6,359 bases of DNA from the NCBI GenBank assembly GCA_024275095.1, contig JAJRZV010000003.1, forward strand, positions 1-6,359, given 5' to 3'. The notes beneath the pieces are model-generated. The model worked only from the letters and a program-made list of their open reading frames with translations, did no database searches and had not been told where the DNA came from. Both the position numbers and the translations under genes were made by a program. This DNA is from a bacterium (lineage in GTDB: Bacteria > JAJRZV01). Of this stretch, positions 2,094 to 6,359 are shown one piece after another; the stretch's first letter is position 1, and the number at the start of each line of letters is the position of its first letter.

Positions 2094-3098
2094 TTAAGAA
2101 AAGAAATAATCCACAATCCTGCGCATTAATCCGCGCTTTCTCGGCTCCTTAAGCGTGCGTCTGAGTGATGATGTCTTTTCCGTAAAAATCATCCACGTTC
2201 GCGAAAATGAATCAAGATATTCCGGGGCTTCACTCAATCTGGCGGGAGTTGGGAGACGCTTTCTTTCAGCACACGCCAGGAGGGCTCTTTTCAGTGCTCC
2301 GGCATCATCAAAACGGTTATCGCGATCCTTTTCCATACACCGGAGAATGACATCGGAAAGGCTCTGAGGCACCCCCGGATTTCGTGAAGATGGTGGAACG
2401 GGTTTTCTATACATAATCGCATTTACAACCTCAGCAACATTGGCACCGGTGAAAGGTCTTTCACCTGTCACTGCAAAGTAAAGGGTTGCACCAGTGGAAA
2501 AAATATCAGTTCGAGCGTCCAGCTCGTCTCCTTTTATTTGTTCCGGAGACATGTATGCCGGTGACCCCCAAGTTTCGCCTGTATCTGTAATTTCTGCGTC
2601 CTGGAGCTTCGCGATGCTGAGGTCCACCAGCTTGACTCCTCCATCTGAAGTGATAAGTACATTGGTAGGTTTTACGTCTCTATGAAGCACACCCGAAGCA
2701 TGAGCTGCTTCCAGAGCATCGCATATCCGAACCCCCACATCCACTGCTTCTTCCGGAGCCAGCGGCCCCAGCCTTCTCACCTGATCATGCAGGGTAATGC
2801 CACGCACCCTCTCCATAACGATGTACGGAATATCTTCATAAAACCCCACATCAAAAATTTGAACCACATTGGGATGTGAAACCCTGCCAGCAGCCCGGGC
2901 TTCTCTGAGAAATCTTTCTATGTATTTGCGACGTTCTGACACATTCATTGTACGGGTAAAAGTCATGAGTTTAACGGCTACATCCCGATCAATCACGGGA
3001 TCATGGGCAAGAAATACCGTGCCCATTGACCCCCTCCCGATGACCCCTTTGACGCAGTAACGCCCCAGAGCCTTAGGCCATGCTGAACCTTCCCACAT
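2094..3098 (-). CDS. Hanks-type serine/threonine protein kinase, soluble (334 aa)
   Basis: A eukaryotic-like Ser/Thr protein kinase that phosphorylates proteins from ATP. The kinase domain fills about residues 13-275. It has a glycine loop GRGSMGTV (21-28), the ATP-anchoring VAVK lysine (Lys43), the alpha-C glutamate (Glu66), the catalytic loop HRDVKPTN (139-146, Asp141 and Asn146), SPE (184-186) and the helix-F aspartate (Asp198). All catalytic residues are present. The DFG motif is altered to D-L-S (159-161): the metal-binding Asp is kept, but Phe and Gly are replaced. The tail (about 276-334) is basic and has no transmembrane helix, unlike PknB-type receptor kinases, so it should be cytoplasmic. 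Start choice: ATG at 3098 or the adjacent TTG at 3101, since an in-frame stop lies just upstream. Neither has a Shine-Dalgarno, and a promoter -10 box sits 7 nt before the ATG. It is the first gene of a probable kinase-FHA-gyrB unit. The substrate is unknown; the FHA protein is the best guess. Confidence 0.95.
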   Translation of the reverse strand: MWEGSAWPKALGRYCVKGVIGRGSMGTVFLAHDPVIDRDVAVKLMTFTRTMNVSERRKYIERFLREARAAGRVSHPNVVQIFDVGFYEDIPYIVMERVRGITLHDQVRRLGPLAPEEAVDVGVRICDALEAAHASGVLHRDVKPTNVLITSDGGVKLVDLSIAKLQDAEITDTGETWGSPAYMSPEQIKGDELDARTDIFSTGATLYFAVTGERPFTGANVAEVVNAIMYRKPVPPSSRNPGVPQSLSDVILRCMEKDRDNRFDDAGALKRALLACAERKRLPTPARLSEAPEYLDSFSRTWMIFTEKTSSLRRTLKEPRKRGLMRRIVDYFFS

Positions 3099-3105
3099 CA
3101 AAGTA

Positions 3106-3135
3106 AGTATATAGGAAAGAAAAACCTACTGTCAA
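3106..3135 (-). promoter_or_regulatory. Sigma70-type promoter for the kinase gene
   Basis: A perfect -35 TTGACA (3135-3130) is followed by TATACT (3111-3106) with an 18-nt spacer. The overlapping hexamer TATATA (3113-3108) gives a 16-nt spacer. AT-rich DNA lies further upstream (about 3148-3178). Transcription should start near 3098-3101, at the kinase start codon itself, so the transcript would have almost no 5' leader. Promoter strength and start site are inferred from consensus only. Confidence 0.72.
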
Positions 3136-3196
3136 CGGCAAAATTCCCGAAATTTAACAATTTTTTATTATATTTCAAGCACATACAAACTGCCTG

Positions 3197-3886
3197 TCAC
3201 CGACGCGCATCCTCCACCACTCTGCCGTCTCTCAGTCTGATAAGCCGGCGTGCTTCTTCCATCACCATGGGATCGTGAGTGGAAAAAACAAAGGTCACAT
3301 TTTTTTCCTGGTTGAGCTCCGCCATCAACTGAATGAGTCTCCGTCCTGTATCTGAATCCAGGTTGGCAGTGGGTTCATCCGCAAGCACAATGCGCGGTTC
3401 CGTAATCAGTGCCCTGGCAACAGCAACCCGCTGCTGTTCACCACCGGATAGCTGGTTGGGTCTTTTGTTCAGGTGTGCCCCCAAACCCACTCTCTCCAGC
3501 ATTTCCCTCGCTTTCCGGCGACGGGTTTTCTCATCCACCCTCCTGAGAAGCAGCGGAAACTCCACGTTTTCAAGAGCTGTCAGCACCTCTATCAGGTTGT
3601 AGGTTTGAAAAATAAATCCGAGATTTTCGAGCCTGAACCGGGCTCTTTTTTTGCCCTGCAACAACGATGTATCTGTACCATTGAGAAAAACCCGACCAGA
3701 TGTGGGTTCATCCAGGCACCCCACGATATTTAAGAGGGTTGTTTTGCCTGAACCAGAAGGACCTGCGATGGCCAGAAATTCACCTTCCTCAACCGTGAAA
3801 CTCACACCCCTGAGTGCAGGAGTAGCCACCCCTTTCGACGTGTAAATTTTTTCAACATTCTCCAGCCTGATCAAAGGTGCACTCAT
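3197..3886 (-). CDS. LolD/MacB-type ABC transporter ATP-binding protein (229 aa)
   Basis: The cytoplasmic ATPase that powers the adjacent FtsX-like permease. It shows every ABC motif in order: Walker A GPSGSGKTT (42-50), Q-loop glutamine 94 (FQTYNL), signature LSGGEQQR (146-153), Walker B with IVLADEPT (166-173), D-loop ANLD and switch His204. The size and the sequence style (ALRGVSF, GCLDEPTSG, SGGEQQRVAVARAL) place it in the LolD/MacB/FtsE subgroup. This subgroup drives mechanotransmission across the inner membrane rather than substrate passage through a channel. The start ATG overlaps the permease stop (ATGA), which indicates translational coupling. GGAGG occurs 13 nt upstream, inside the permease gene, which is a rather long spacing. 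It is the last gene of the operon, and no convincing terminator follows. The neighbouring LolA-like protein makes transport of lipoprotein or another hydrophobic cargo towards the outer membrane more likely than drug efflux. The family is certain, the cargo is not. Confidence 0.96.
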   Translation of the reverse strand: MSAPLIRLENVEKIYTSKGVATPALRGVSFTVEEGEFLAIAGPSGSGKTTLLNIVGCLDEPTSGRVFLNGTDTSLLQGKKRARFRLENLGFIFQTYNLIEVLTALENVEFPLLLRRVDEKTRRRKAREMLERVGLGAHLNKRPNQLSGGEQQRVAVARALITEPRIVLADEPTANLDSDTGRRLIQLMAELNQEKNVTFVFSTHDPMVMEEARRLIRLRDGRVVEDARR

Positions 3887-5112
3887 ACGTATTTAATCGC
3901 CTCCACCGGCTGGAGTCTGGATACTTTGTAGGCTGGGTAAAGAGACGCCAGCACAGCCACCAGAAAGATAACCCCCACAGAGCTTGTCACGTGATACAGG
4001 CTGTCAGCCGTGAAATAGGGATAAAGCACCTTGGGCATTGCAAACATTTCCATAATGTCTGAAAAATTGCTCAAATCAATACCCACATGATTGAAATATA
4101 CACTGAGAAGAATTCCGAGACCCATGCCAGCGGCGACCCCTATTAAATTGAGCATTATTGATTCCAACACCACCATCCGAAAAATCATTCCCATATCAGC
4201 ACCCATGGCATGCATAATTCCAAACTCGCGTGTTCGCTCGGTAACAGACATGAGGATCGTATTCATCACGCCGAACCCTGCGATGATGGTCACAATAATC
4301 AGTATGAGGTACATGCTCGCATTATCCATTTCGATGCCCTGGTAGAGAAAAGGCATGATGTCCTTCCAGGTGAGAACCTCGTACTGTTTACCAAGCTGAG
4401 CCTGCAACTCTTTTTTTATTTCGTCGCTTTTGCGCAGGTCTTTCAACTTCAACGCAAACTCGTGAATGCCTGTAAGATAGAGCATGGAAGCCACTCCTTC
4501 GATGTGAGCAATCATTGCACCGCTGTTCAGTTCGGTAACGCTGAAATCTACAATCCCGCGCACACGAAATGCCTCTGCTCCGAGTGAGCCATCTGCTGCC
4601 TGCGAAAGAAGTACCACTTTGTCTCCAACGCCGACGTTGAGATTTTCAGCCAGTATTTTCCCCAAAAGAACACCCTTTACATCGTCAGGTTTCAAATACT
4701 CACCGGTGATGACACGGTCGTAAAAGTATGTAACCTTCATTTCCTGCTCCGGCTTAACGGCAAGAACCATCACCCCTGCGGAATCTTCAGCGCTGGAGGC
4801 GAGAGCATATGTCTTTATCCTTTCAGAAATACCCGATATCTCGGGATGGGAGGCAATAACTTTGCGAACGGTGTCAACATCCTGGATGGTGTCTTCAAGA
4901 GCCGGGTTTTTGGCAAATCCTTTTTTGTGTATCTGAATTTCTCCAGGGAGCACATCGCACGAAAGTCGTATTACCTGTTCGTGCACGCCGTCTATAAGCG
5001 CCCAGAAAAAGACCAGGGATGCCACACCCACGGCTATGGCCGCAACGGTGATGAGAGAACGCCTGGGATTGCGCCAGGTATTGCGCCACGTCAGTTTCAG
5101 AATAAGGCTCAC
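3883..5112 (-). CDS. FtsX/LolC-type ABC transporter permease (409 aa)
   Basis: The inner-membrane subunit of an ABC transporter with the LolC/E and MacB topology. The N-terminal RNPRRS motif leads into the first membrane helix (about 20-42). A large periplasmic domain follows (about 43-265), and then three C-terminal helices (about 267-290, 310-338 and 375-395) of the FtsX permease domain. TERTREFGIMHAMGA (291-305) is the typical cytoplasmic coupling region, and SLYPAYKVSRLQPVEAIKYV is the classic C-terminus. Length fits LolC/LolE (about 400 aa). Only one permease gene is present, so it probably works as a homodimer with the downstream ATPase, unlike the LolC-LolE heterodimer. The start is GTG, preceded by AAGGA at 8 nt. 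This GTG overlaps the stop of the restored LolA-like frame (GTGA). That junction argues that the upstream gene originally ended at 5109. The cargo is inferred to be a lipoprotein or other hydrophobic envelope molecule. Confidence 0.95.
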   Translation of the reverse strand: MSLILKLTWRNTWRNPRRSLITVAAIAVGVASLVFFWALIDGVHEQVIRLSCDVLPGEIQIHKKGFAKNPALEDTIQDVDTVRKVIASHPEISGISERIKTYALASSAEDSAGVMVLAVKPEQEMKVTYFYDRVITGEYLKPDDVKGVLLGKILAENLNVGVGDKVVLLSQAADGSLGAEAFRVRGIVDFSVTELNSGAMIAHIEGVASMLYLTGIHEFALKLKDLRKSDEIKKELQAQLGKQYEVLTWKDIMPFLYQGIEMDNASMYLILIIVTIIAGFGVMNTILMSVTERTREFGIMHAMGADMGMIFRMVVLESIMLNLIGVAAGMGLGILLSVYFNHVGIDLSNFSDIMEMFAMPKVLYPYFTADSLYHVTSSVGVIFLVAVLASLYPAYKVSRLQPVEAIKYV

Positions 5113-5890
5113 CGACTTCTTCCTTTCAGGGCTTTCAGAGAAAAGCGTGAGGCAGGAATTTTTACGTTAAATTTCACGTCCTGAATGCTGAGCACTGTTT
5201 CGTATCCTTTTTTCTTCACCGGGATCATTCGCATGATCGTCGGTATGAGACGCCCCCCATTTTGCGCACACGCTCAAAAGTCATATAACGTATTAATTCT
5301 CCTCGTTCGTTATAGTATTCAGCTCTGACAGGAATGTGGCCTGGAATTTTCAGCGTATAAACAATCTTCCCCCACACCACCGGAGCATCCGGCTTGGGTG
5401 TAAGTTGAAGTGTGTATGTTGTGTACTTCCCGCGTCTCTTTCTTTCAAGAATGGTTTTGTCATAATCACGAGAAATGGACGACTCTTTCACGAGGTCATC
5501 ATTTGTAAAATCGCTTCCCATCCAGGAGTTCATCATCATGGAAGGAGGAATTCGGATAATACGTTCAACACGGGGGATGTACATCCACATATCGTTTTTC
5601 AGTTTGAGAAACGCCGTACCTCTGTCACGGACAGGCTCTTCAATCACCACAAAAGATTTATCCCCTTCTCGCTGGTCCCAGAACCGTATGGTGTAACGTC
5701 TCGTCCACGAGGGACGGGTAACAATCATGGTATAGGTGCCTGTGCTGGTAAGACCCCGAAGAAGGTCTTCTGCCTTTTGTACCAGGTCTTCTGCTGTTTC
5801 AGCCCGGGCAATTCCCGTCAGAAACCATGCAAGTATAATTATCCCGGCCGCTCGTTCAGTAAAATGCTGACATTTTGAAAAAATACGCAT
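5109..5890 (-). CDS. LolA-like outer membrane lipoprotein-sorting protein, interrupted by a frameshift
   Basis: A predicted periplasmic carrier of the LolA-like 'outer membrane lipoprotein-sorting protein' family. It has a signal peptide (1-30: Arg/Lys n-region, core GIIILAWFLTG, cleavage after ARA). The family's hallmark segment follows at about 101-134, with MWMYIPRVERIIRIPPS and MGSDFTNDDL. The first frame stops at 5225 after 221 residues, right after MGG in a run of six G (5258-5253). In the -1 frame the protein continues with RLIPTIMRMIPVKKKGYETV and 27 more residues to a TGA at 5111-5109. That gives 260 residues in all, the usual size for the family. The restored stop overlaps the permease GTG start, which confirms the original end. 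One added G would repair the gene. Possible causes are a homopolymer sequencing error, a real mutation, or -1 recoding at G GGG GGC. The start at 5890 is the only usable one and gives a 35-nt overlap with the upstream barrel gene. GGTGG lies 7 nt before it. Confidence 0.9.
5252..5258 (-). other. Homopolymer frameshift site, possible -1 slippery heptamer
   Basis: On the coding strand the sequence is ATG GGG GGC GTC. The last G of ATG with the next two codons gives G GGG GGC, which fits the X XXY YYZ pattern of -1 slippage sites. A one-base backward slip gives MGG followed by the conserved C-terminal frame. Without the slip, eight unrelated residues and a stop at 5225 follow. The position is directly seen; the functional meaning is open. 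Confidence 0.6.
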
Positions 5891-6359
5891 CGCCCATCCA
5901 CCAGAATTCGGTTCCCTTCTTACCCGCTGGAATTATAGCTCCTGCACTGATCTCCATAAACTGAAAAGGAATCCACTCCGCAACAGGGAAAAAAACACAG
6001 CTGTTATCATTCAGGTTCACCTCGAATCCCAGGGAAAGTGTAATCGGATAGTTCAGAGACTTGCTGATATATAAAGCCGCGTAATGGCGGCCCAAGGAAC
6101 CAGTGCCCGGAGGACGGCTGAAAAATTGAGTCAACACTTTCAATTGTGAGAATCCAGAGGTAGAGTATGAACTGAGAATCTGATTAAACGGGTATTTATC
6201 CGATGATGTAAAACCGTCTGTGTAGTTAAGAAAATACTCGAGAATGAGATCGAAACCCTCTTCCAAGCCCCTATCGTATCCCAGCAGAAGCTTGAATCTC
6301 TTCTCAGGAACAATCAGGTCCGCCCTGAGCACCCCTTCAAAAAGGTTAAAAGCGACCGA
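5856..6359 (-). CDS. Probable outer-membrane beta-barrel protein, C-terminal 167 residues (5' end cut by window)
   Basis: The frame is open to the right window edge, so the real start lies outside; an internal GTG at 6332 is not a credible start. The visible part shows alternating hydrophobic and polar stretches with many aromatics, for example FKLLLGYDRG, FDLILEYFLNY, YAALYISKSL and LSLGFEVNL. Short polar or Gly/Pro-rich turns separate them, as in transmembrane beta-strands. The chain ends in AYFFKMSAFY, a C-terminal strand with a terminal aromatic residue, as in proteins folded by the BAM complex. I do not recognise a specific family. Its stop lies inside the LolA-like gene, 35 nt past that gene's start, so the two are probably translationally coupled. 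Barrel, LolA-like carrier and LolC/D-type ABC genes in one operon suggest a joint envelope transport or assembly route. The barrel could be the outer-membrane endpoint or the cargo. A different beta-rich envelope protein remains possible. Confidence 0.72.
   Translation of the reverse strand, partial: SVAFNLFEGVLRADLIVPEKRFKLLLGYDRGLEEGFDLILEYFLNYTDGFTSSDKYPFNQILSSYSTSGFSQLKVLTQFFSRPPGTGSLGRHYAALYISKSLNYPITLSLGFEVNLNDNSCVFFPVAEWIPFQFMEISAGAIIPAGKKGTEFWWMGDAYFFKMSAFY

Follow-up and report, generated by a model that had tools for sequence, protein, structure and literature searches.

In operons for exporters of the LolCDE/MacB type, the gene for a carrier adjoins genes for a permease and an ATPase. 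One such set is Borrelia BBJ26-BBJ28, in which a LolA-like carrier is accompanied by an adjacent permease and ATPase (PMC13078400). Genes with a broken reading frame also form a described class. In the GeneTack survey of prokaryotes by Antonov et al., a frame break that occurs in a single genome, and is backed by BLASTp and Pfam, is termed a 'singleton'; singletons are attributed to sequencing error or to indel mutation (PMC3711429).

The DNA analyzed here (the window) is the entire contig JAJRZV010000003.1 (C26), 6,359 bases, from a draft genome of 2.45 Mb in 136 contigs that is about 97% complete. Read along its minus strand, it carries first the 3' end of a gene without a name, followed by genes for a LolA-like protein, a permease, and an ABC ATPase; beyond a gap come genes for a Ser/Thr kinase and an FHA protein and then gyrB, of which only the first 520 codons are present. 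The permease (3883-5112, minus strand) is of the LolC/E-MacB type, with FtsX and MacB_PCD domains; its best NCBIfam match is lolCE (TIGR02212, 161 bits against a cut-off of 362). The ATPase (3197-3886, minus strand) is of the LolD type, with an ABC_tran domain; its best NCBIfam match is LolD (TIGR02211, 246 bits against a cut-off of 308). Both scores fall under the equivalog cut-offs, so these proteins are relatives of LolC/E and LolD rather than LolC/E or LolD proper.

The LolA-like gene thus heads a lolA-like/permease/ATPase operon of Lol/MacB type. As in the LolCDE/MacB-type operons, the carrier adjoins the permease and ATPase, although the window proteins score below the cut-offs; the three together match the set encoded by Borrelia BBJ26-28 (PMC13078400). 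The LolA-like protein likely takes a lipid or lipoprotein from the adjoining ABC exporter across the periplasm.

In the assembly, however, the LolA-like gene has no single uninterrupted reading frame. A 221-codon frame (5225-5890, minus strand) encodes a signal peptide, recognized by eye, along with the first three quarters or so of the protein. It runs into a tract of six Gs (5253-5258, minus strand; C6 on the plus strand), whose G-C context also reads G_GGG_GGC, and reaches a TGA soon afterward; its last eight residues, VSYRRSCE, are off-frame. The -1 frame (5109-5258, minus strand) continues from the G run as GGRLIPTIMRMIPVKKKGYETVLSIQDVKFNVKIPASRFSLKALKGRSR and closes at a TGA (5111-5109) that overlaps the permease GTG (5112-5110) in the sequence GTGA. 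Counted from the Arg, this frame supplies 47 residues, for a restored protein of about 260 residues. The frame switch falls within the G run and nowhere else: agreement with the homologues holds in frame 0 as far as K-M-G-G and in the -1 frame from G-G-R onward. An earlier note on this sequence had described just such a one-base split at the G6 run, together with the 47 residues, the restored length, the TGA-GTG overlap, and an apparent gap of 112 nt (5113-5224) between the 221-residue frame and the permease; each of these agrees with the sequence.

Both frames belong to one Pfam family. Frame 0 matches PF17131 (LolA_like) over profile positions 2-142 with 141 bits, and the -1 frame does so over positions 138-183 with 33 bits; the curated cut-off is 30 bits. 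The two halves jointly span positions 2-183 of 184, and a PF17131 search of the genome recovered the same two adjoining pieces in the window. The gene therefore resembles other family members in that both halves score above the curated cut-off, and differs from them in having one half out of frame with the other. Against a profile made from 49 homologues (from KSB1, WOR-3, spirochaetes, desulfuromonads, SAR324, and others), frame 0 scored 260 bits and the -1 frame 36 bits (E 1e-12); the other four frames scored below zero. Membership in the same family over adjoining profile ranges takes the match of both frames beyond chance. The proposal that the -1 frame is the normal family C-terminus was thereby borne out, and the alternative that it bears no similarity to family C-termini falls away.

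The homologues also show where the protein ought to end. Among the 48 whose frame closes, all of them distant relatives, the protein runs on for 41 to 63 residues (median 46) beyond the position that corresponds to residue 212, and none ends 40 or fewer residues past the break. In the window, the corresponding counts past the Gly-Gly site are 9 for the 221-residue frame and 47 for the -1 frame, the latter within the homologue range. Homologues that naturally end near residue 221 are thus absent from the closed set, so the split stands. None of the 48, distant as they are, is broken at the same point. Those homologues whose codons at the site are legible use GGC GGA, GGC GGG, or the like, and a run of six or seven Gs occurs in none of them there. 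(The exact DNA pattern of the site was also searched for in viral contigs, with no match.) At no fewer than 23 homologue loci the permease start follows directly upon the LolA-like gene, in some cases with a four-base overlap. Because the closed homologues all continue and none that is legible at the site carries the G run, the tail represents the usual C-terminal end, and the break is unique to the window sequence.

The locus is, then, an ordinary LolA-like gene with a confirmed frameshift in its assembled sequence. Like the singletons of the GeneTack survey (PMC3711429), it has a frame break in one genome only, supported by homology and by a Pfam domain that extends across the break, and it is an ordinary case of that class. 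For annotation, the locus should be read as one LolA-like carrier of about 260 residues coupled to its exporter; as the earlier note warned, the 221-residue frame taken at face value would misdescribe the protein and create a false gap.

How far can the consensus be trusted? Several contig ends share overlaps of exactly 141 bases, which suggests a short-read assembly graph. The right end of the window (6034-6359) overlaps contig C93 (9555-9880) over 326 bases with two mismatches: one is synonymous, and the other changes GGA (Gly) to TGA in the C93 copy of the gene upstream. (Two small contigs, C31 and C33, consist of N over their full span.) Other breaks were sought in a sample of about 0.52 Mb; only those revealed by Pfam or visible on direct reading are used, and screens for in-frame stops, which overlooked the prfB case described below, were set aside. 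A home-made coding-frame model flagged mostly normal overlapping genes in its first version and gave many false positives when refined, so no genome-wide frameshift rate is claimed.

The most telling of these breaks lies in prfB, the gene for release factor RF2 (contig C21, 8392-9526). This gene has the usual programmed +1 site, CTT TGA C, and in addition an in-frame TAA (8711-8713) within the PCRF domain, whose profile is matched over positions 1-70 before the stop and 76-194 after it. It is the only RF2 copy in the genome; the one further PCRF protein is intact, lacks the +1 site, and is taken as RF1. TGA is the commonest stop among 298 long ORFs (143 TGA and 129 TAA). It is difficult to believe that RF2 is non-functional when TGA ends so many genes and prfB is the sole RF2 gene, and the in-frame TAA is likely a consensus error. 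Reassignment of TAA was considered as a source of in-frame TAA codons and rejected, given how many of the long ORFs end in that codon. On contig C36 (12300-17000), a carbamoyltransferase is spread over several frames, and an A run interrupts the frame of an AhpC/TSA-type gene, all within 5 kb; the genes there have either truly decayed or been poorly assembled. Some of the other breaks in the sample may likewise be real decay.

The frameshift in the LolA-like gene most likely is not biological. At a probability of roughly 0.55, the favoured reading is that an error in the consensus of a short-read, metagenome-type assembly dropped one base from the G run; the frame would then be continuous in the living organism and the base absent only from the assembly. 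This fits the adjoining PF17131 halves in two frames; a tail that is intact, conserved at the level of the family, and closed by a stop overlapping the permease start; and the read-through in all 48 closed homologues. The exact 141-base end overlaps, the mismatches with C93 (one of them nonsense), the TAA in the sole prfB, and the other broken genes in the sample point in the same direction. Nevertheless, short reads seldom miscount a run of six or seven Gs, and many such runs sit within intact long ORFs of this genome. The carbamoyltransferase with its several shifts, along with some other breaks, resembles real gene decay, and the window break lies near the 3' end of its gene, where breaks are somewhat likelier to be real indels (PMC3711429). 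Such an event would be a very recent one-base deletion that removed the LolA-like C-terminus and left a tail not yet decayed; it may be fixed or confined to one strain of a mixture, possibly in a length-variable tract. This account is held tentatively, as an appreciable possibility. It draws on the proneness of homopolymer runs to indels, on strain-level variation at the right end of the contig, on other genes that look decayed, and on several other LolA_like loci (at least four besides the window gene) that might compensate for the loss. Yet the tail bears no further damage and keeps the family residues, and the prfB break, by suggesting that the consensus contains errors, favours consensus error over real deletion. 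Either way, the undamaged tail and the absence of a split at this point in the homologues uphold the earlier view of a break that either arose very recently or is not real.

Less probable by far is that the six Gs are real and that -1 frameshifting or transcriptional slippage at G_GGG_GGC yields both a full-length and a 221-residue carrier. The phase of the heptamer is correct, and slipping back by one base on it would give K-M-G-G-R-L-I-P-T, but any indel in the G run creates this heptamer automatically; moreover, 17 copies of GGGGGGC lie in long ORFs that keep their frame. A possible RNA hairpin (UACCG..GAUCAU-GCGA-AUGAUC.CGGUG; 5217-5245, minus strand) begins about 6 nt past the heptamer, at -12.7 kcal/mol with a z-score of -2.1 against shuffles. 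It is not exceptional, since 21% of 3,000 coding 53-mers from the genome fold equally well, and 4.8% also begin pairing at 4-8 nt. Nor is the frame transition conserved, the G run being present in no homologue readable there (all distant). In E. coli, the sister motif G_GG.G_GG.U without a stimulator was the weakest construct measured (PMC4066793). Programmed frameshifting is thus formally possible, and unsupported beyond chance. It is scarcely credible that the locus comprises two genes, one for the 221-residue protein and the other a 41-codon ORF from the ATG at 5234. A simple gene-finding model does accept the latter as an overlapping gene; even so, the tail begins to match before that ATG is reached and supplies the missing end of the same Pfam domain, none of the 48 closed homologues ends at that point, and the homologue profile contradicts a division into two genes.

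The probable consensus error in the LolA-like gene has a practical corollary: gene breaks in this assembly, that in prfB included, should be checked against reads before they are taken as biology. A GDSL/SGNH-like gene on contig C126 (13376-14414) seems to shift frame near 13585, with a weak Pfam match downstream only. Other breaks occur within the LolA-like family itself. Another LolA_like gene, located where the edges of contigs C3 and C83 overlap by exactly 141 bases, has an in-frame TAA at the very G-R-x-x-P-T motif that is interrupted in the window gene. A deltaproteobacterial homologue (JAJRQB010000100.1, about 3001-3531) likewise has an isolated break, an in-frame TAA of its own partway through the gene.
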